Assembly (NCBI RefSeq): GCF_001263415.1
Contig: NZ_LGTE01000008.1
Span: 1-64,000 of the forward strand
Length of the DNA stretch: 64,000 nt
Source: Thermincola ferriacetica
Lineage (GTDB): Bacteria > Bacillota > Thermincolia > Thermincolales > Thermincolaceae
Reading direction: 5' to 3'
The notes beneath the pieces were generated by a model. The model had not been told where the DNA came from. It did no database searches and saw only the letters and a program-made list of their open reading frames with translations. The position numbers and the translations under genes were made by a program. This document shows positions 26,437-52,332 of this stretch, in pieces. Position 1 is the stretch's first letter. Each line of letters begins with the position of its first letter.

Positions 26437-26466
26437 CTGTCAACAATATTTAAAATGTGCTACAAT
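26437..26466 (+). promoter_or_regulatory. Candidate sigma-A promoter of the ANTAR regulator gene
   Basis: -35 CTGTCA (26437-26442) and -10 TACAAT (26461-26466), spacing 18. Transcription would begin near 26473, which supports the ATG at 26514 as the true start rather than upstream TTG/ATG codons. Confidence 0.5.
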
Positions 26467-26513
26467 TAGATATTGAAAACCGGAGTAGGGAAATTCAAAT
26501 TGGGGTGGGTGCG

Positions 26514-27107
26514 ATGCACGAACTAAGGATCATGATAGCTGACCCGGATGTAGATTTCTGTAAATACCTCAGGGAAAAACTGGTCCAGGCGGGATACATT
26601 GTCGTAGCCGAAGCTTCCGAAGCTCGCAGCGCCCTCCATATGATTTTCAGCAGCCAGCCTGATGTGGCCCTGATCAATGCCCGTTTTCATGGCCAGGACG
26701 GCTTGGATATTTCCTATTTTCTTGAAGAGCACCGCATAGCCCCAGTAATCTTAATGGCTGACTACGATGATTATGAGATTCTCTCTTATGTGCTGGGACA
26801 TTGGGTTTTTGGCTATTTGGTAAAGCCCATTGATTTTGCGACCCTTATTCCTAACATGGAAATTGCCGTGGCAAATTATCGCAGGCTGCTCAACCTGGAA
26901 GCCGAAATTAAAAAGCTTAAAGAGAACCTGGAGAACCGGAAGTTGATAGAAAAGGCCAAAGGCATCCTGGCCGATATGTTGGGTTTTACCGAGGAAGAAG
27001 CCTTGAAGTTTTTGCAGAAAATTAGTATGGACAAGTGTATGCCTATGAAAAAAGTGGCTTTAAAAATAATTGCCAAATATGGACAGGCCCAAAACGGCAG
27101 GGAGTAA
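26514..27107 (+). CDS. ANTAR-domain RNA-binding response regulator, atypical receiver
   Basis: A 197-residue protein with an N-terminal receiver fold (1-118), a short coiled-coil linker (KLKENLENRKLIEKAKG) and a C-terminal ANTAR domain (about 140-192: LIEKAKGILADMLGFTEEEAL, then KISMDKCMPMKKVALKII). ANTAR proteins bind paired hairpins in leader RNAs and prevent termination. In the receiver, Asn55 (VALINARF) replaces the phospho-acceptor Asp and the acidic pair is D-P-D, so control by phosphorylation is unlikely. The glutamate synthase immediately downstream has a matching leader. Its other targets may include asnB and nifH. Confidence 0.92.
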   Translation: MHELRIMIADPDVDFCKYLREKLVQAGYIVVAEASEARSALHMIFSSQPDVALINARFHGQDGLDISYFLEEHRIAPVILMADYDDYEILSYVLGHWVFGYLVKPIDFATLIPNMEIAVANYRRLLNLEAEIKKLKENLENRKLIEKAKGILADMLGFTEEEALKFLQKISMDKCMPMKKVALKIIAKYGQAQNGRE

Positions 27108-27233: not shown

Positions 27234-27279
27234 TGCAACCGCATATATAGATATAGGTTGCACGGGGCAATGGCGTCCC
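27234..27279 (+). ncRNA. ANTAR-target tandem hairpins (P1/P2) in the glutamate synthase leader
   Basis: P1 is the stem TGCAACC (27234-27240) / GGTTGCA (27256-27262) with a GCA bulge, a TAT/ATA pair and the six-base loop ATAGAT. P2 is the stem GGGGC (27264-27268) / GTCCC (27275-27279) with the loop AATGGC. Both loops have A at position 1 and G at position 4, the recognised ANTAR RNA signature. The 3' arm of P2 is also the 5' arm of the following terminator, so P2 and terminator exclude each other. Confidence 0.82.
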
Positions 27280-27320
27280 ACTGGTCATAGGTTTAAGCTA
27301 TGATCCGTGGGGCGTTTTTT
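27274..27320 (+). terminator. Regulated terminator in the glutamate synthase leader
   Basis: A 17-bp stem CGTCCCACTGGTCATAG (27274-27290) / CTATGATCCGTGGGGCG (27298-27314), with one mismatch and a G-U pair, is followed by TTTTTT. It overlaps P2 of the ANTAR element, as expected for an antitermination switch. Confidence 0.85.
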
Positions 27321-27365
27321 GTTTAAAATTAAAATTTAATTCACCAAAGGGAGGATGGAGAGAGG

Positions 27366-28943
27366 ATGAGCTACAGTAAAGGAATCAATGCTACTGCAGC
27401 AACACTGACAAAATTACGCACAGGGGACAGTAACTGTCCTTTCAGCGGGATGTGCGTAACCTGTCTGGACGGGTGTCCGGGACTTTGCGAAATTGGAAAA
27501 TCTTCCATAAGGGGTAAAGAAACCCTGTACCCGCAGCCTTTCGGTAAGATTACCGCTGCTGCTGAAAAAGATTACCCGGTGGATTATTCACATTTCAACA
27601 TTGCGGGTACTGCAGTCGGCGCTCATGGAATTGCCGCTGACCCCGACGTGGCCACTTTCCCGAATGTAAACATTGAATCTGCTGTGGGCGCTTACGGTGA
27701 CCTGCCCCTGCGTTTACCCATCGTGATTGCCGGGATGGGTTCAACAAACGTGGCTGCTGACAACTGGGAACACCTGGCTGCCGGCGCAGCTATCTCCGGA
27801 GTTGGGATTGTTATCGGTGAGAACGTTGTGGGCATGGACCCCAAGTCTGAAATCAAAAACGGCAAAGTAGTCAAAGCTCCGAACTTAGAAAAACGGGTCA
27901 AGGACTTCCAGAACTGGTATAATGGCAAAGGCTTTGTTGCGGTACAGGCTAACGTAGAAGACACCAGGCTTGGTGTTCAGGAGTTTGCCCTTGAGAAACT
28001 GGGCGTTGAAGTAGTTGAGCTGAAGTGGGGCCAGGGCGCCAAAGATATCGGTGGCGAGGTTAAGTTAAACACCCTTGAGCGCGCTAAGCAGCTTTACAGC
28101 AGGGGTTACATAGTACTGCCGAATCCTGAAGACCCGGAAGTAGAAAAAGCCTTTAAGGCCGGCGCTTTCACTGAATTTGAAAGGCATTCCCGTATAGGTA
28201 TGGTTACCGAAGACAGTTTCCATGCGCGGGTTAAGCAATTGCGTGAAGCCGGCGCCAAGTATGTATTCCTGAAGACCGGCGCTTACAGGGCAGCAGACCT
28301 GGCCCGCGCCGTGAAGTTTGCTTCCGATGCGAAAATCGACCTGTTAACTGTAGACGGCGCCGGCGGCGGTACAGGTATGAGCCCGTGGAGAATGATGAAC
28401 GAATGGGGTATCCCAACCCTCTATATCCAGGCTTTACTTACCAGGTACCTTGACAAGTTGGCTGCCAAAGGCGCCTTTGTACCTAAGGTTGCCATTGCCG
28501 GTGGGTTCACTTTAGAAGACCATATGTTTAAAGCTCTTGCCATGTCGGCGCCCTATGTGAAAGCTGTTGGTATGGCCCGTTCGCCGCTTACCGCCGCTAT
28601 GGTTGGCAAGACTGTCGGCGAAGCTGTTAAACAGGGCAAAGTGCCTAATGAATACAAGAAATATGGCGAAACCCTGGAGCAGGTATTCATCTACGCTCAT
28701 GAACTGAAAAACAGGCTAGGCAAAGACTTCGACAAACTCCCCGTTGGCGCTGTGGGTGTATATACTTACTTCGAACGTCTGGCTCAAGGCTTACGTCAAT
28801 TGATGTGTGGCGCCCGGAAGTTTGCTCTGGAATACATCACCCGTGATGACATATTTGCTTTAACCAAAGAAGCTGCTGAAATTACGGGAATCAAGTATGT
28901 TATGGAGCACGATGCTGAAGAAGCTGAAAAGATACTCGGCTAA
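27366..28943 (+). CDS. FMN-binding glutamate synthase family protein
   Basis: A 525-residue protein corresponding to the central FMN and FeS domain of glutamate synthase (GltB2-type). It has an N-terminal Cys cluster (CPFSGMCVTCLDGCPGLC) and a TIM-barrel GOGAT core with LLTVDGAGGGTGMSPW and GLRQLMCGARKF. It is expected to help form glutamate from 2-oxoglutarate with an amide or ammonia donor, using separate partner subunits; none is adjacent. GGGAGG lies before the ATG. Its leader carries an ANTAR-type switch, tying it to nitrogen control. Confidence 0.9.
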   Translation: MSYSKGINATAATLTKLRTGDSNCPFSGMCVTCLDGCPGLCEIGKSSIRGKETLYPQPFGKITAAAEKDYPVDYSHFNIAGTAVGAHGIAADPDVATFPNVNIESAVGAYGDLPLRLPIVIAGMGSTNVAADNWEHLAAGAAISGVGIVIGENVVGMDPKSEIKNGKVVKAPNLEKRVKDFQNWYNGKGFVAVQANVEDTRLGVQEFALEKLGVEVVELKWGQGAKDIGGEVKLNTLERAKQLYSRGYIVLPNPEDPEVEKAFKAGAFTEFERHSRIGMVTEDSFHARVKQLREAGAKYVFLKTGAYRAADLARAVKFASDAKIDLLTVDGAGGGTGMSPWRMMNEWGIPTLYIQALLTRYLDKLAAKGAFVPKVAIAGGFTLEDHMFKALAMSAPYVKAVGMARSPLTAAMVGKTVGEAVKQGKVPNEYKKYGETLEQVFIYAHELKNRLGKDFDKLPVGAVGVYTYFERLAQGLRQLMCGARKFALEYITRDDIFALTKEAAEITGIKYVMEHDAEEAEKILG

Positions 28944-31058: not shown

Positions 31059-31631
31059 GTGCGGGTTTTAATTGCAGATAAAGATGTTTCCTTCGTAAAA
31101 ACCATAAAGCAGTATCTGGTCCCTGCCGGTTACGAGGTAATTGCTGAAACGGCGGACGGGATAACCGCTTTGAAATTAACTCGCACGATGCAGCCAGACC
31201 TGGTAATTCTAGAAGCTTTTCTGCCCGGGATGGATGGTATTGAGGTGGGCAAGATAATAGAAGAAAGCAGGCTTGCTGCGGTAATTGTTGTGGCTACATA
31301 CTCTGAGCTTGATGTAGTCATGGCCAAAGGAGATTGGCCTTTTCCTGTTCTCCCCAAACCTATTGAGCCGGCCGCCCTTATTTCCGTGGTAGATTACGTT
31401 GTGAATTCCTATAGAAAATTAATTTCTTTGGAAAAAGAAGTTCGGTCATTACAAAATGCACTGGCTGCCAGGAAGCTGGTGGAGAAGGCAAAAGGCATTT
31501 TGATGAAGACGCAGGGACTTTCCGAAGAAATGGCTTTTCGTAAGATGCAGCAGTTAAGCATGAAAAAAAGGTTGTCCATGAAAAAAATTGCTGAAGCTAT
31601 TATCCTGGCCCATGAAAGTACGAAAGCGTGA
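31059..31631 (+). CDS. Second ANTAR-domain RNA-binding response regulator, atypical receiver
   Basis: A 190-residue paralogue of the regulator at 26514. The receiver fold (1-118) has Glu52 (LVILEAFLPGMDG) where the phospho-acceptor Asp should be and D-K-D for the acidic pair. The ANTAR domain (about 130-186) has RKLVEKAKGILMKTQGLSEE and KRLSMKKIAEAI. The start is GTG at 31059 with AAGGTGGG upstream. It is monocistronic, ending in a terminator at 31640. With the first ANTAR protein it is a candidate activator of the leaders at 27234, 34595 and 51120; which protein binds which leader cannot be told. Confidence 0.92.
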   Translation: MRVLIADKDVSFVKTIKQYLVPAGYEVIAETADGITALKLTRTMQPDLVILEAFLPGMDGIEVGKIIEESRLAAVIVVATYSELDVVMAKGDWPFPVLPKPIEPAALISVVDYVVNSYRKLISLEKEVRSLQNALAARKLVEKAKGILMKTQGLSEEMAFRKMQQLSMKKRLSMKKIAEAIILAHESTKA

Positions 31632-31639
31632 TGGCGGAG

Positions 31640-31669
31640 CACCTTGGGAAAAATCCCAGGGTGTTTTTT
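31640..31669 (+). terminator. Intrinsic terminator of the second ANTAR gene
   Basis: CACC..TGGGA / TCCCA..GGTG around AAAA, followed by TTTTTT, begins 9 bases after the stop. Confidence 0.85.
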
Positions 31670-31787
31670 GTGGAAAAATGTAGAATTATTTGTTATATTT
31701 TTAAAAGTAAACAGGAATATTGCTTTTTATTGTCGAAAGCACAATGTGTGTTTACCTAATCTTGCTAATTGGAGGTGGGTTGTTGCA

Positions 31788-32195
31788 ATGGCGTTGATGG
31801 TTTGGGATGATAAGTTCAGTGTGGGTGTCAAGGAACTGGATGACCACCACAAAAAGCTTGTCGCACTCATAAACGAACTGCATGATGCGATGAAGGTGGG
31901 TAAAAGTAAGGAAATAATGGACGATATAATAGCCAGACTTACCGATTATACTAAATTTCACTTTTCTGTCGAAGAAAATTACATGGTTAAGTATTCCTAT
32001 CCCCAATATCCTCAGCAAAAACTTGCCCATGATAAATTTACCGAAAAAGTACTACAGTTTCAGAAGGACCTGAAAGAGGGGAAAATTGCCATTTCGATGG
32101 AGATAATGACCTTCCTGAAGGATTGGCTGATTAACCATATCTCCGGCTCAGACAAAAAATATGGACCCTTTTTTAACGAGCATGGGTTAAGGTGA
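31788..32195 (+). CDS. Bacteriohemerythrin, copy 1
   Basis: A 135-residue hemerythrin fold with the diiron ligands recognisable as H-H-x-x-L...E (DDHHKKLVALINELHD), HFSVEENYM and KLAHDKFTEKV, then LINHISGSDKKYGPF. It binds O2 reversibly, for protection, storage or sensing in an anaerobe. GGAGGTGGG is about 12 bases before the ATG. It is closely similar to the next gene, a recent tandem duplication. Confidence 0.95.
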   Translation: MALMVWDDKFSVGVKELDDHHKKLVALINELHDAMKVGKSKEIMDDIIARLTDYTKFHFSVEENYMVKYSYPQYPQQKLAHDKFTEKVLQFQKDLKEGKIAISMEIMTFLKDWLINHISGSDKKYGPFFNEHGLR

Positions 32196-32241
32196 GAAAC
32201 CAAATGATATTTTTTAAATATTTTTCAAGGAGGGGTTGACA

Positions 32242-32649
32242 ATGGCATTGATGGTTTGGAACGATAAGTTCAGTGTAGGTGTAAAGGAACTGGATGACCA
32301 TCATAAAACGCTTGTTGCACTGGTAAACGAATTGCATGATGCGATGAAGGTGGGTAAAACTAAGGAAATAATGGACGATATTTTAGCCAGACTGACGGAT
32401 TATACCAGGTTTCACTTTTCTGCAGAAGAGAAATACATGACTAAGTATTCTTATCCCCAGTATACTCAGCACAAACTTGAGCATGATAAGTTTACCGAGA
32501 AAGTATTGCAGTTTCAGAAGGACCTGAAGGACGGTAAATTTGCCATCTCCATGGAGATAATGACCTTCCTGAAGGATTGGCTTATAAACCATATCTCCGG
32601 TTCAGACAAGAAATATGGACCCTTCTTTAACGAGCATGGGTTAAAGTAA
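32242..32649 (+). CDS. Bacteriohemerythrin, copy 2
   Basis: A 135-residue tandem paralogue, about 90% identical to copy 1 by eye, with the same diiron ligand motifs (DDHHKTLVAL, HFSAEEKYM, HKLEHDKFTEK, HISGSDKKYGP). The ATG at 32242 has AGGAGGGG seven bases upstream; TTG 32236 is too close to that site. Differences are mostly conservative, so the two may differ in expression more than function, an inference. Confidence 0.95.
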   Translation: MALMVWNDKFSVGVKELDDHHKTLVALVNELHDAMKVGKTKEIMDDILARLTDYTRFHFSAEEKYMTKYSYPQYTQHKLEHDKFTEKVLQFQKDLKDGKFAISMEIMTFLKDWLINHISGSDKKYGPFFNEHGLK

Positions 32650-32677: not shown

Positions 32678-34522
32678 CTATATAACACTGATTTTATACT
32701 CCCGCAGCCAGGTATCCACCTGAATAAGAAAGGCAAATAACTGCGGGCCTTTCATTAACTGGCCGAACCATGGCCGATCAAAAACATCCCCACCGGATTG
32801 AGCCATTTTCCGCAGGGCAGTTAGATTGACCAGAGGCAAAAGGGGTGAAGAGGAATCATGCAAAATATGGAGCAGATGCTCCCGCACAATGGCCATATAA
32901 GCCGGGTTGTGGGTTTTGGGGTAAGGGCTTTTACGCCGGTACAGGATTTCATTGGGCAGAACCCCGGACAGGGCCCGGCGAAGTATGCCTTTTTCCTTGC
33001 CGCCACAGGTCTTCATATGCCATGGAATGTTCCAGACGTATTCCACCAAATGGTGGTCGCAAAAGGGCACCCTTATTTCCAGGCCCGTGGCCATGCTCAT
33101 CCGGTCTTTGCGTTCAAGCAGGGTAGCCATAAACCAGTTAAAATTTAAATAGAAGATTTCCCGCCTGCGGGCTTCAATAGGGTCTTCGCCCGGCAACCTG
33201 GGGACTTCGGCAATTGTTTCTTCGTACCTACGCCTGATGTACTCTTCAGGTTTGATGTAGTCCAGCAGTTCCGCGGAAAATATCTTTTTGCGCCGGTCAA
33301 AACCCCTGAGCCATGGGAAGGTATTCGCATTAAAGGCATCTTCATCCCGGTACCACGGATAGCCGCCGAACACCTCATCGGCACACTCGCCTGACTGGGC
33401 CACGGTGGCCTCTTTTTTTATCTCCCGGCAGAACAAGAGAAGTGAGGAGTCGATGTCGGCCATACCGGGCAGATCACGGGCCAGGGTAGCCTGGATTAAT
33501 GCTTCTGCCAATTTGTCTGTAGCAATTTTTATATGATGATGTATAGTTTTATAACGGTCAGATACCAGGTTGATATAAGGGCCGTCGGCAGTTGGCTCGA
33601 AGTGACTGGCCTGGAAGTACCGGTCGTTTCCCTCGTAATCAATGGAAAAGGTATGTAGTGGACCGCGCCCTTCTTCCTTGAACACTGTGGCGGCCAAAGC
33701 AGTTAAAGCGCTGGAGTCCAGCCCGCCTGAAAGGAGAGTGCAGACGGGGACATCAGCTACCAACTGGCGCCGGATAGAGTCTTCCAACAGTTGCCTTACT
33801 TTAGCGGTGGTGGTTTCCAGGTCATCGGTATGTTCTTTACTTTCCAAAACCCAATAACGCTTTGTGCGGATGAGGTTATCTTTAAAAAGCAGACAGTACC
33901 CCGGTTTTACTTCCGCTATGTTTCGGAAAACTCCATGACCCGGCGTTCTTGAAGGCCCAAGGGCAAAAATTTCCGCTAACCCCTCGGCATCAACTTCCGG
34001 CCTAACCATGGGATGGGCCAATAAAGCCTTAAGTTCAGAACCAAAGATAAAGGAGCCATCCTGTAGGGTATAAAACAGGGGTTTAACGCCAAAACGGTCC
34101 CTGGCCAGAAAAAGACTTTCTTCTTTGTCGTTCCATACGGCAAAAGCGAAAATCCCGTTAAGCTTCTCAACGCATTTGGCTCCCCATTCCATATAAGCGG
34201 TTAAAAGCACTTCAGTATCGGAATGGCCCTGGTAAGTATAGCCCCGGGAAATTAATTCCGCCCGCAGTTCGGGTGTGTTATACAGCTCGCCGTTATAGAC
34301 AAGGACAAAGGTTTCGTCTCCCCGACGGCGTATCATCGGCTGGTTCCCGCCGGTGGGGTCTATAACTATGAGACGCCGGTGGCCAAGAATGGCATGGGGT
34401 GAATGCCATATGCCTTTTGCATCGGGACCGCGTGGGGCCAGGGTTTGGGTCATATCTTCAACAATCGGACGGTATGGCGTAAGGTCTTGATTCCTGTCAA
34501 TCCAGCCTGTAATTCCACACAT
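32678..34522 (-). CDS. asnB: Asparagine synthase (glutamine-hydrolysing)
   Basis: A 614-residue enzyme converting aspartate and glutamine to asparagine. The N-terminal Ntn glutaminase starts MCGITGW with catalytic Cys2, then GPDAKGIW, GHRRL and VYNGELYN. The C-terminal synthetase carries the PP-loop LLSGGLDSSALTA (about 260) and SGECADEVFGGYPWYRD. The ATG at 34522 is set by Cys2 and by GGAGG eight bases upstream. Upstream on the same strand is an ANTAR-type leader with a terminator, so expression is probably controlled by antitermination. Confidence 0.96.
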   Translation of the reverse strand: MCGITGWIDRNQDLTPYRPIVEDMTQTLAPRGPDAKGIWHSPHAILGHRRLIVIDPTGGNQPMIRRRGDETFVLVYNGELYNTPELRAELISRGYTYQGHSDTEVLLTAYMEWGAKCVEKLNGIFAFAVWNDKEESLFLARDRFGVKPLFYTLQDGSFIFGSELKALLAHPMVRPEVDAEGLAEIFALGPSRTPGHGVFRNIAEVKPGYCLLFKDNLIRTKRYWVLESKEHTDDLETTTAKVRQLLEDSIRRQLVADVPVCTLLSGGLDSSALTALAATVFKEEGRGPLHTFSIDYEGNDRYFQASHFEPTADGPYINLVSDRYKTIHHHIKIATDKLAEALIQATLARDLPGMADIDSSLLLFCREIKKEATVAQSGECADEVFGGYPWYRDEDAFNANTFPWLRGFDRRKKIFSAELLDYIKPEEYIRRRYEETIAEVPRLPGEDPIEARRREIFYLNFNWFMATLLERKDRMSMATGLEIRVPFCDHHLVEYVWNIPWHMKTCGGKEKGILRRALSGVLPNEILYRRKSPYPKTHNPAYMAIVREHLLHILHDSSSPLLPLVNLTALRKMAQSGGDVFDRPWFGQLMKGPQLFAFLIQVDTWLREYKISVI

Positions 34523-34594
34523 GTTTTTCTCCTCCAACCTTCAAGAAATTTCCATTCCCACAGAAATTAAGCTGTGGCACCTTTCGGCAAGTCC

Positions 34595-34645
34595 AAAAAC
34601 AAAGAAGAGGCCACAAGGTTTAAAGTTAAACCTTTTCGTGGCCCC
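34595..34645 (-). terminator. Regulated terminator in the asnB leader
   Basis: Read on the minus strand: GGCCAC (34643-34638) with AAGGTTT (34634-34628) pairs with AAACCTT (34621-34615) and GTGGCC (34614-34609), a two-part stem with a small bulge. It is followed by CTTCTTTGTTTTT. The 5' arm overlaps the 3' arm of ANTAR hairpin P2. Confidence 0.82.
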
Positions 34646-34680
34646 TTTGCCAACTGAACTTGATACGCCGTTGTATCAAG
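34639..34680 (-). ncRNA. ANTAR-target tandem hairpins (P1/P2) in the asnB leader
   Basis: On the minus strand, P1 is CTTGATAC-AACGGC-GTATCAAG (34680-34659), an 8-bp perfect stem with a hexaloop. P2 is TGGC-AAAGGG-GCCA (34652-34639). Both loops have A at position 1 and G at position 4. P2 shares GCCA with the terminator that follows. This is the same logic as the glutamate synthase and nif leaders. Confidence 0.82.
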
Positions 34681-34819
34681 AAACCTATTTCGAAATCTAT
34701 TTTATGAATTAAGATGTCGGAAGTTGCCTGAATTTTTGCCGGAAGATTTTTATCAATATGTCAGTCACACGGAAATGTGAGATTTAACACACAAGGGTGC
34801 TGTTAACTATATCAAGGCA

Positions 34820-34851
34820 TTGACAGTATACTGTAAATAGCAGTATACTGT
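34820..34851 (+). promoter_or_regulatory. Promoter with paired palindromic operators of the PadR unit
   Basis: -35 TTGACA (34820-34825), 18-bp spacing, -10 TATACT (34844-34849). Two near-identical palindromes, ACAGTATACTGT (34823-34834) and GCAGTATACTGT (34840-34851), overlap both elements and are 17 bp apart. They are probable autoregulatory sites for the PadR protein encoded downstream. Confidence 0.7.
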
Positions 34852-34906
34852 AAAATATAGTTAGAAAAAATGGCCTGTCGGTATATTGGGAAAGGGGGTC
34901 ATTAAT

Positions 34907-47269: not shown

Positions 47270-47385
47270 GCCTAACATAAAGCCGTGTTTCCGCAGTTGA
47301 GCATGCAAAAACACCGGCAAAGCACTGGCACTGCCGGCGTTAAACCGTTACTTAATATGCTCAATTGCGGCAACACATGTTGGAC
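47270..47385 (+). repeat. attC-like imperfect palindrome, full copy
   Basis: A 116-bp palindrome starting GCCTAAC (47270-47276) and ending GTTGGAC (47379-47385), matching the integron core patterns RYYYAAC and GTTRRRY. Nested arms are CCGCAGTTGAGCATG (47291-47305) / ATGCTCAATTGCGG (47357-47370), GTGTT / AACAC, and an inner AACACCGGCA / TGCCGGCGTT. It lies 31 bp after the last small gene on the plus strand. It is the best attC candidate in the window. Confidence 0.55.
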
Positions 47386-47411
47386 GAAGCCGCAGCATCG
47401 AAGCTGTACGA

Positions 47412-47500
47412 CACAACAGCTCCGCTTCGCTCCGACCCAACTTGTCCCGTCCTCGGCTGCCACGGTTTTTGCAGTTACCTGGCAAAAATCGCGCCACCAA
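47412..47500 (+). repeat. Repeat family C, copy
   Basis: ACAGCTCCGCTTCGCTCCGA, then CAACTTGTCCCGTCCTCGGC and GTTACCTGGCAAAAATCGC, closely matches copies at 43828 and 50294. A family D copy follows at 47717-47741. Confidence 0.6.
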
Positions 47501-47741
47501 GGGGGTAGGGGCCAGGGCTACTACTACGACCTGCCACGCCGCTCATTTGGTACCACCGGCCAGGCGGCACATTGGGAAAAGGCCGCCGCGTGCCTGGCCG
47601 ATGGGCCGTTCCTACTCAACAAAGCAATAAAGCCGACTCAAATGAGCGGCTTTGCAGAATGGCCGACTAACGGCGTTCTAAACGACAGTTTTGGTGTCAC
47701 GATTTTTGCGGACCAGGTGCAAAAACCGCGCCGGTCGTGCG

Positions 47742-48333
47742 GGGAAAGACTAAAGAAATTCCGGCTGGAGTTAGCAGAAGAAAAGACCCGGATAATCCGG
47801 TTCACCCGATTTCGCAAGGAAGAAAACCAAAGCTTCGAGTTCTTGGGCTTCGAATACCGATGGGGAACGTCACGACAGGGGAAAGACATAATTAAGAGGA
47901 GAACCTCCGGGAAGAAAGTTCGGAAATCCCTGCAGGCATTCAAAGAATGGTGCCGGGAGAACCGGAACAACCGGCTATTAAAGCTATTCGGGCAATTAAA
48001 TCCGAAACTTCGAGGCTATCACAACTACTATAGGATTATCGGCAACTATGAAGGAATTAACGAGTTCTACCAAAATGCCGTAAGAATCCTATATAAATGG
48101 CTAAATCGAAGGAGCCGAAGGCGGAGCTTCAACTGGATGGAATTTCGGAAAACCCTGGACAGATACAAAATATTGCGGCCTCGAATAATGGAGAGTCGTA
48201 ACTGCCAGTTAGAACTTGAATTTGATTTTGTCTGATTACGGAAGTGAGTATTACTGAAGAGCCCGGTGCGGTAGTTCCGCACGCCGGGATCTGTGCGGGG
48301 GTTGGCGGGTAACCGGCAGTCCTACCGTGACGG
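47742..48333 (+). mobile_element. 3' fragment of a group II intron
   Basis: It contains the end of an intron-encoded reverse transcriptase and the catalytic RNA 3' end. Domain V is at 48259-48291 (GAGCCCGGTGCGG, then TTCCGCACGCCGGGATC; AGC triad near its start), followed by a domain VI-like segment to about 48330. The 5' RNA and most of the enzyme are missing. A second 3' remnant is at 49579-49633. Confidence 0.8.
47745..48235 (+). pseudogene. Truncated group II intron reverse transcriptase/maturase
   Basis: The last ~163 codons of a maturase: ERLKKFRLELAEEKTRIIRF, then FEFLGFEYRWGTS, and the X domain (LRGYHNYYRIIGNYEGINEF). The catalytic reverse transcriptase core (YADD) is absent. The reading frame stays open upstream into repeat sequences, which is not coding. 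The intron is therefore immobile by itself. Confidence 0.85.
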
Positions 48334-51100: not shown

Positions 51101-51119
51101 ATCACTATAAACCATAACC

Positions 51120-51153
51120 GATACACAGTTGTATCAACTGAGCAATGATGCTT
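51120..51153 (+). ncRNA. ANTAR-target hairpins, module 1 of the nif leader
   Basis: P1 is GATAC-ACAGTT-GTATC (51120-51135); P2 is GAGC-AATGAT-GCTT (51140-51153). Both hexaloops have A at position 1 and G at position 4. The 3' arm of P2 is the start of the terminator 51150-51176. Confidence 0.8.
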
Positions 51154-51176
51154 TCCGAGGCCGGAAAGCATTTTTT
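51150..51176 (+). terminator. Regulated terminator 1 of the nif leader
   Basis: GCTTTCCG (51150-51157) / CGGAAAGC (51162-51169), loop AGGC, then TTTTTT at 51171-51176. It overlaps P2 of module 1. Confidence 0.85.
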
Positions 51177-51265
51177 GTTTATTTAAAACGAAATGAATTA
51201 GTTTTATGTTATGATAAAATTAAATAAAGGATACTTCATGATTTCTGCAAAACACTGTTGTTAGA

Positions 51266-51295
51266 GTACTTAGATGTACATGGGCAGAGGGGCCT
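51266..51295 (+). ncRNA. ANTAR-target hairpins, module 2 of the nif leader
   Basis: P1 is GTAC-TTAGAT-GTAC (51266-51279); P2 is GGGC-AGAGGG-GCCT (51282-51295). G is at position 4 of both loops; A is at position 1 in P2 but T in P1, a departure from the consensus. P2's 3' arm overlaps the next terminator. Confidence 0.68.
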
Positions 51296-51335
51296 TTTGG
51301 CATAATTTCCGGTTTGGAAGCCAAAGGGCCTTTTT
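51291..51335 (+). terminator. Regulated terminator 2 of the nif leader
   Basis: GGCCTTTTGGC (51291-51301) / GCCAAAGGGCC (51320-51330), with an inner TTCC/GGAA stem, then TTTTT at 51331-51335. Confidence 0.82.
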
Positions 51336-51365
51336 GTTTAATTCTACGGCGATTGTTCAGGCGAA

Positions 51366-51402
51366 GGCGCCAGGGTTAACTCACTTACCCCGGCGCCTTT
51401 TT
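51366..51402 (+). terminator. Third terminator of the nif leader
   Basis: GGCGCC-A-GGGT (51366-51376) / ACCC-C-GGCGCC (51387-51397), followed by TTTTT. A candidate competing hairpin GGC-GAAGGC-GCC (51360-51371) overlaps its 5' arm, but that loop starts with G, so an ANTAR role is uncertain here. Confidence 0.75.
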
Positions 51403-51456
51403 GTATACATCTGTGGATCTTCCCAAGGGAGGTGAACAGCTAAAAATAATAGGTAG

Positions 51457-52332
<876 letters not shown>

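Follow-up and report, generated by a model that had tools for sequence, protein, structure and literature searches.

The 64,000-nucleotide stretch of Thermincola ferriacetica DNA analysed here (the window) carries, on its minus strand, a gene for glutamine-hydrolysing asparagine synthetase (asnB) that is preceded by two small hairpins and a terminator. A preliminary description had taken this leader for an ANTAR switch that has the architecture of the nif and glutamate synthase leaders and links asparagine synthesis to the same nitrogen signal. We asked whether the leader is such an element, which genes share it, and which protein and signal may act on it.

Anatomy and folding of the asnB leader

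The asnB product scored 529 bits against TIGR01536 (cut-off 267), and the gene is the single full-length copy in the genome. Its mechanical open reading frame begins at TTG 34537; the more probable start, ATG 34522-34520, yields Met-Cys and was preferred because it places Cys2, the nucleophile of class II amidotransferases. Upstream of it, P1, P2 and a terminator reusing the GCCA of P2 were found at 34595-34680 exactly as first described, in sequence and in coordinates (Table 1). The loop and 3' arm of P2 double as the 5' arm of the terminator, and on paper P2 and terminator are mutually exclusive. Transcription is expected to start near 34692, downstream of a putative -10 box (34704-34699) that is separated from the probable asnB start by 176 bases. 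In each of the order's eight asnB leaders a TATAAT/TAAAAT-like box precedes P1 by approximately 15-25 nt; no good match to a -35 box was found for the asnB promoter.

Table 1. Positions of the asnB leader, of related leaders and of candidate regulators (window coordinates unless a contig is given).
Feature	Position	Strand	Remarks
Receiver-ANTAR regulator adjoining glt gene	26457..27107	+	PF03861 + PF00072; phosphoacceptor Asp replaced by Asn
ANTAR-type leader of glutamate-synthase-domain (glt) gene 27366-28943	27239..27327	+	R2, 26.4 bits, E 0.003 in window
Receiver-ANTAR regulator, candidate	31059..31631	+	PF03861 + PF00072; phosphoacceptor Asp replaced by Glu
asnB, glutamine-hydrolysing asparagine synthetase	32678..34522	-	TIGR01536
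Intrinsic terminator	34595..34650	-	hairpin formed with P2 loop and 3' arm (RNAfold), running to GTGGCCTC at 34614-34607, T run 34599-34595
P2 antiterminator hairpin	34639..34652	-	TGGC/GCCA; arms 34652-34649 and 34642-34639; hexaloop AAAGGG (A1, G4) at 34648-34643
Linker, P1 to P2	34653..34658	-	TTCAGT, 6 nt
P1 hairpin	34659..34680	-	8-bp stem CTTGATAC/GTATCAAG; arms 34680-34673 and 34666-34659; hexaloop AACGGC (A1, G4) at 34672-34667
Putative -10 box of asnB promoter	34699..34704	-	TAAAAT; inferred
Weak ANTAR-type leader candidate upstream of nifH	51117..51187	+	R2, 19.8 bits, E 0.055
Second weak ANTAR-type candidate upstream of nifH	51262..51342	+	R2, 17.9 bits, E 0.13; P1 loop TTAGAT, without A1
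NifH gene	51466-52332
Third ANTAR regulator, glnA-linked	contig C8, 69465-70043		Glu at the EutV Asp54 position

According to the published rule, ANTAR target RNAs carry two hexaloops with A1 and G4, the second hairpin overlapping a terminator (PMC3369931, PMC3369936), and functional eut linkers measure 5-12 nt (PMC3369931). The asnB leader has the A1/G4 hexaloop in P1, a P2 stem longer than the 3-bp minimum and likewise topped by an A1/G4 hexaloop, a linker within range and an overlap of P2 with the terminator in the right direction, and the genome encodes ANTAR proteins. It thus resembles the eut leaders of Enterococcus faecalis, read by EutV, in its dual A1/G4 hexaloops, its short linker and its P2 overlapping an intrinsic terminator; it differs in its target, asnB, and in that the regulators encoded here lack the EutV phosphoacceptor Asp54.

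The leader folded with a minimum free energy of -41 kcal/mol (z = -4.33), and none of 200 shuffled sequences folded equally well. When folding was followed along the growing transcript, P1 formed first and P2 at 46 nt, while the terminator formed only after its 3' arm had emerged. The predicted terminator form is more stable than the form with P1 and P2 (-33.4 versus -13.8 kcal/mol), so that the terminator would win unless P2 is held. A strict scan for the layout (hexaloops of the form A..G.., minimum stem lengths of 6 bp for P1 and 4 bp for P2, and a T-tailed hairpin that takes up an arm of P2) returned the asnB leader as the sole site in the window and no occurrence in 60 random strands of 64 kb, by which a chance origin of the layout was ruled out. 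A consensus terminator scan missed the asnB terminator owing to its tight limits on loop and tail.

As asnB is a plausible T-box target and its leader has a terminator, control by a ligand- or tRNA-sensing element, i.e. an asparagine T-box or an amino-acid riboswitch, was weighed. However, no Rfam family reached its gathering score anywhere in the window, the best chance matches of the leader fell far below threshold, and a T-box was not matched in the leader at gathering or at E values up to 5. Moreover, with transcription probably starting near 34692, the RNA up to the terminator's end would measure approximately 95 nt, which is short for a T-box. We therefore give this explanation practically no credence, in agreement with the preliminary description, which had considered a T-box and dismissed it.

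Two further features flank the leader. A small hairpin (CCACAG...CTGTGG, 34554-34577, minus strand) separates the terminator from the ribosome-binding site of asnB; it has no T run and is not obviously conserved. At 34820-34860, in the interval that separates asnB from a divergent PadR-family gene with an MFS transporter, ACAGTATACTG occurs twice and looks like a PadR operator.

Conservation of the leader in front of asnB

The order comprises ten genomes including this one, which is the only genome of its family; searches at the level of class and family added none. All eight genomes of the order with a close asnB, this one included, carry P1 and P2 hexaloop hairpins directly upstream of the gene. 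In seven aligned asnB leaders, five of the eight P1 pairs showed changes on both sides, and 92.8% of cells were paired compared to 26-37% in slid controls. A1 and G4 of both loops were kept in all seven, while the remaining loop positions vary. The GGC/GCC of P2 was invariant, and the P2 helix accordingly showed no compensatory change in these seven leaders. The terminator stem was paired in 95% of cells in the relatives, with changes on both sides at three of six pairs. The exception is genome G007, whose P2 loop reads GACGAG and whose terminator shows no 3' arm, possibly due to an assembly collapse in this 63%-complete genome.

Beyond the order, the more distant Clostridia genome Soudan_19 carries the full element with different stems (P1, AGTATC/GATACT with loop AAAGAC; P2, TGGC/GCCA with loop AATGGC). 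In three further distant genomes (MES5, 'isolate 27' and AS04) P2 is kept upstream of asnB and P1 is not clear. The leaders of these three consist of a perfect P2 hexaloop and a terminator, and are possibly single-hexaloop ANTAR leaders. ANTAR proteins are encoded by all four of these distant genomes, as they are in T. ferriacetica and in every relative carrying the leader. In front of asnB in Bacillus, Ruminococcus and Clostridium, and in most of the remaining Bacillota examined, no such element was detected.

Terminators with adjoining stems are common, and the hairpins could in principle form an ordinary constitutive terminator or attenuator that resembles ANTAR targets by chance in its hexaloops and is free of ANTAR control. 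We consider this highly improbable, given that P1 covaries and A1/G4 are invariant across the order, that the random strands were devoid of the layout, and that the leader tops the genome-wide ranking of a model made from ANTAR leaders of other genes (see below). With P1 and P2 conserved in the relatives, the published A1/G4 pattern present and this ranking, the original assignment of an ANTAR switch to asnB was borne out, and as judged from sequence the leader is very probably a standard ANTAR antitermination element controlling asnB.

Covariance models and the nitrogen regulon

A first covariance model, R1, was built from the asnB leaders, that of the window included. It matched in 42 of 398 Bacillota genomes, approximately a tenfold excess over expectation at E 0.01. 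Outside the order, 18 R1 sites had a readable next gene, and in 14 of these it is glnA, amt, eutA, a gene for P-II or for an ANTAR regulator, or a class II amidotransferase gene such as gltB. Three of the others precede a near-identical MFS transporter (one examined) and one an unrelated gene. The target classes are those reported by Ramesh et al. 2012 (PMC3369931).

For the reverse comparison, model R2 was made from 24 non-asnB leaders of other genomes; its sequences had been gathered with R1, so that the independence of this test is not total, while the gene contexts are independent. Over the 3.18-Mb genome the best R2 match was the asnB leader (59.1 bits, E 7.6e-8), followed by the leaders of amtB (C8:64654, 52.0 bits), an ANTAR gene (C8:69338, 49.4 bits), glnA (C8:71697, 35.0 bits) and glt (27239, 26.4 bits). 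The comparison with other leaders that had been suggested at the outset thus places asnB first. The further claim that the glt and nif leaders have the same architecture held in so far as R2 finds all of them, albeit weakly (Table 1), and the P1 loop of the second nif candidate departs from the pattern at A1. The two nif candidates are followed at 51360-51405 by a third hairpin, GGCGAAGGCGCC...GGCGCCTTTTTG, that has a T run; its P2-like loop lacks A1 as well. A group II intron maturase fragment is located at 47285-48235, between the asnB region and nif.

Just past the window, amtB, P-II, amt, P-II, P-II, an ANTAR regulator and glnA follow one another at C8:64000-72500; of these, amtB, the ANTAR gene and glnA are each preceded by an ANTAR leader. 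In G009 and Soudan_19, asnB is divergent from an ammonium transporter gene (amt), and the leader is present on both genes. ANTAR nitrogen regulons have been predicted for Desulfotomaculum acetoxidans, D. reducens and Pelobacter carbinolicus, where the same element precedes genes for ammonium transport, P-II, glutamine and glutamate synthesis and nitrogenase; the main text of that study does not name asparagine synthetase as a target (Ramesh et al. 2012, PMC3369931). No relevant paper linking ANTAR to asnB or asparagine synthase was found in the literature searched, which did not extend to Table S2 of the 2012 study. On the evidence of its leader, asnB belongs to a predicted ANTAR nitrogen regulon together with amtB, glnA, glt and probably nif. 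The device itself is known, and asnB is a new target gene of it rather than a new mechanism, priority being subject to the 2012 Table S2. Asparagine synthesis would thereby join the functions whose genes are coupled to nitrogen status via ANTAR antitermination in some Bacillota.

Candidate regulators and proposed mechanism

Three ANTAR proteins are encoded in the genome. Each has a receiver, each lies on the contig of the window, and their PF03861 scores of 67-80 bits exceed the cut-off. Alignment with EutV revealed that the Asp54-type phosphoacceptor is absent from all three receivers. Across the order, three paralogue groups are maintained whose receiver sites are not alike: reading the motif by eye in relatives, we found Asn in all four glt-linked proteins seen, Ala, Ser or Glu in the orthologues of the 31059-31631 protein, and, outside this genome, a retained Asp in the glnA-linked group. 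EutV requires phosphorylation for dimerisation (PMC3369936). Without this phosphoacceptor Asp in any of the three receivers, activation by EutV-style phosphorylation is unlikely, and in this organism at least the ANTAR proteins probably do not depend on a kinase for activation. A precedent is AmiR of the Pseudomonas aeruginosa amidase operon, likewise an ANTAR protein with a non-phosphorylated pseudo-receiver that acts through a leader terminator (PMC3369936); a feature of its own is that it is held by the amide-binding protein AmiC.

For protein binding, direction of control, signal and the identity of the protein at asnB, we infer the following scheme. RNA polymerase starting near 34692 would make P1 and then P2. 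As long as no active ANTAR dimer is at hand, P2 would be drawn into the downstream hairpin and transcription would stop near 34597, before asnB. An active dimer would be recruited at P1, move to P2 and hold it, whereby the terminator would be blocked and asnB transcribed. One of the three receiver-ANTAR proteins is most likely the regulator; these proteins are probably either switched on through a partner protein or ligand, in the manner of AmiR, or permanently active.

The signal is probably nitrogen status, since amtB, glnA, the ANTAR gene, glt and probably nif carry the same leaders. This agrees in part with the preliminary description, which had proposed one nitrogen signal throughout: the co-regulated genes are indeed nitrogen genes, while a common signal is to be read against three different ANTAR paralogues, none of them with a phosphorylatable Asp. 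Alternatively, asnB may be an ANTAR target that answers to a signal or polarity unlike that of the nif, amt and glnA leaders, as only one of the three paralogues may read it. The maintenance through the order of three paralogue groups with different receiver sites would fit such a division, and the consumption of glutamine by asnB means that its 'on' condition need not be nitrogen starvation. However, the loops and layout of the asnB leader are the same as those of the amtB and glnA leaders, one model finds all of them, and asnB and amt form divergent pairs in two genomes. We consider a separate signal unlikely on balance, and favour nitrogen status as the shared one.

More tentatively, we propose that asnB is an unreported member of the ANTAR nitrogen regulon in this order, and that the regulon is run here wholly by ANTAR proteins with non-phosphorylatable receivers, so that nitrogen status would reach the RNA via a partner or ligand. 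The asnB leader would then be a clean, top-ranked RNA for asking how dead-receiver ANTAR proteins are switched. Two tandem bacteriohemerythrin genes, 88% identical, directly follow the ANTAR gene at 31059-31631 (31644-32649). They were considered as a sensor and set aside: no match was found near the orthologous ANTAR genes of relatives, and the pair is probably local to this genome.

Residues of EutV that contact RNA are Lys143, Lys147, Met172 and Tyr164, the last of which stacks on G4 (PMC8934654). Lys143, Lys147 and Met172 are kept in all three ANTAR proteins, and Tyr164 is replaced by Phe in the 31059-31631 protein, by Leu in the 26457-27107 protein and by Phe in the protein at C8:69465. 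Given Phe at this position as opposed to Leu in the glt-linked protein, the asnB leader would more likely be read by the 31059-31631 protein or by the glnA-linked one.
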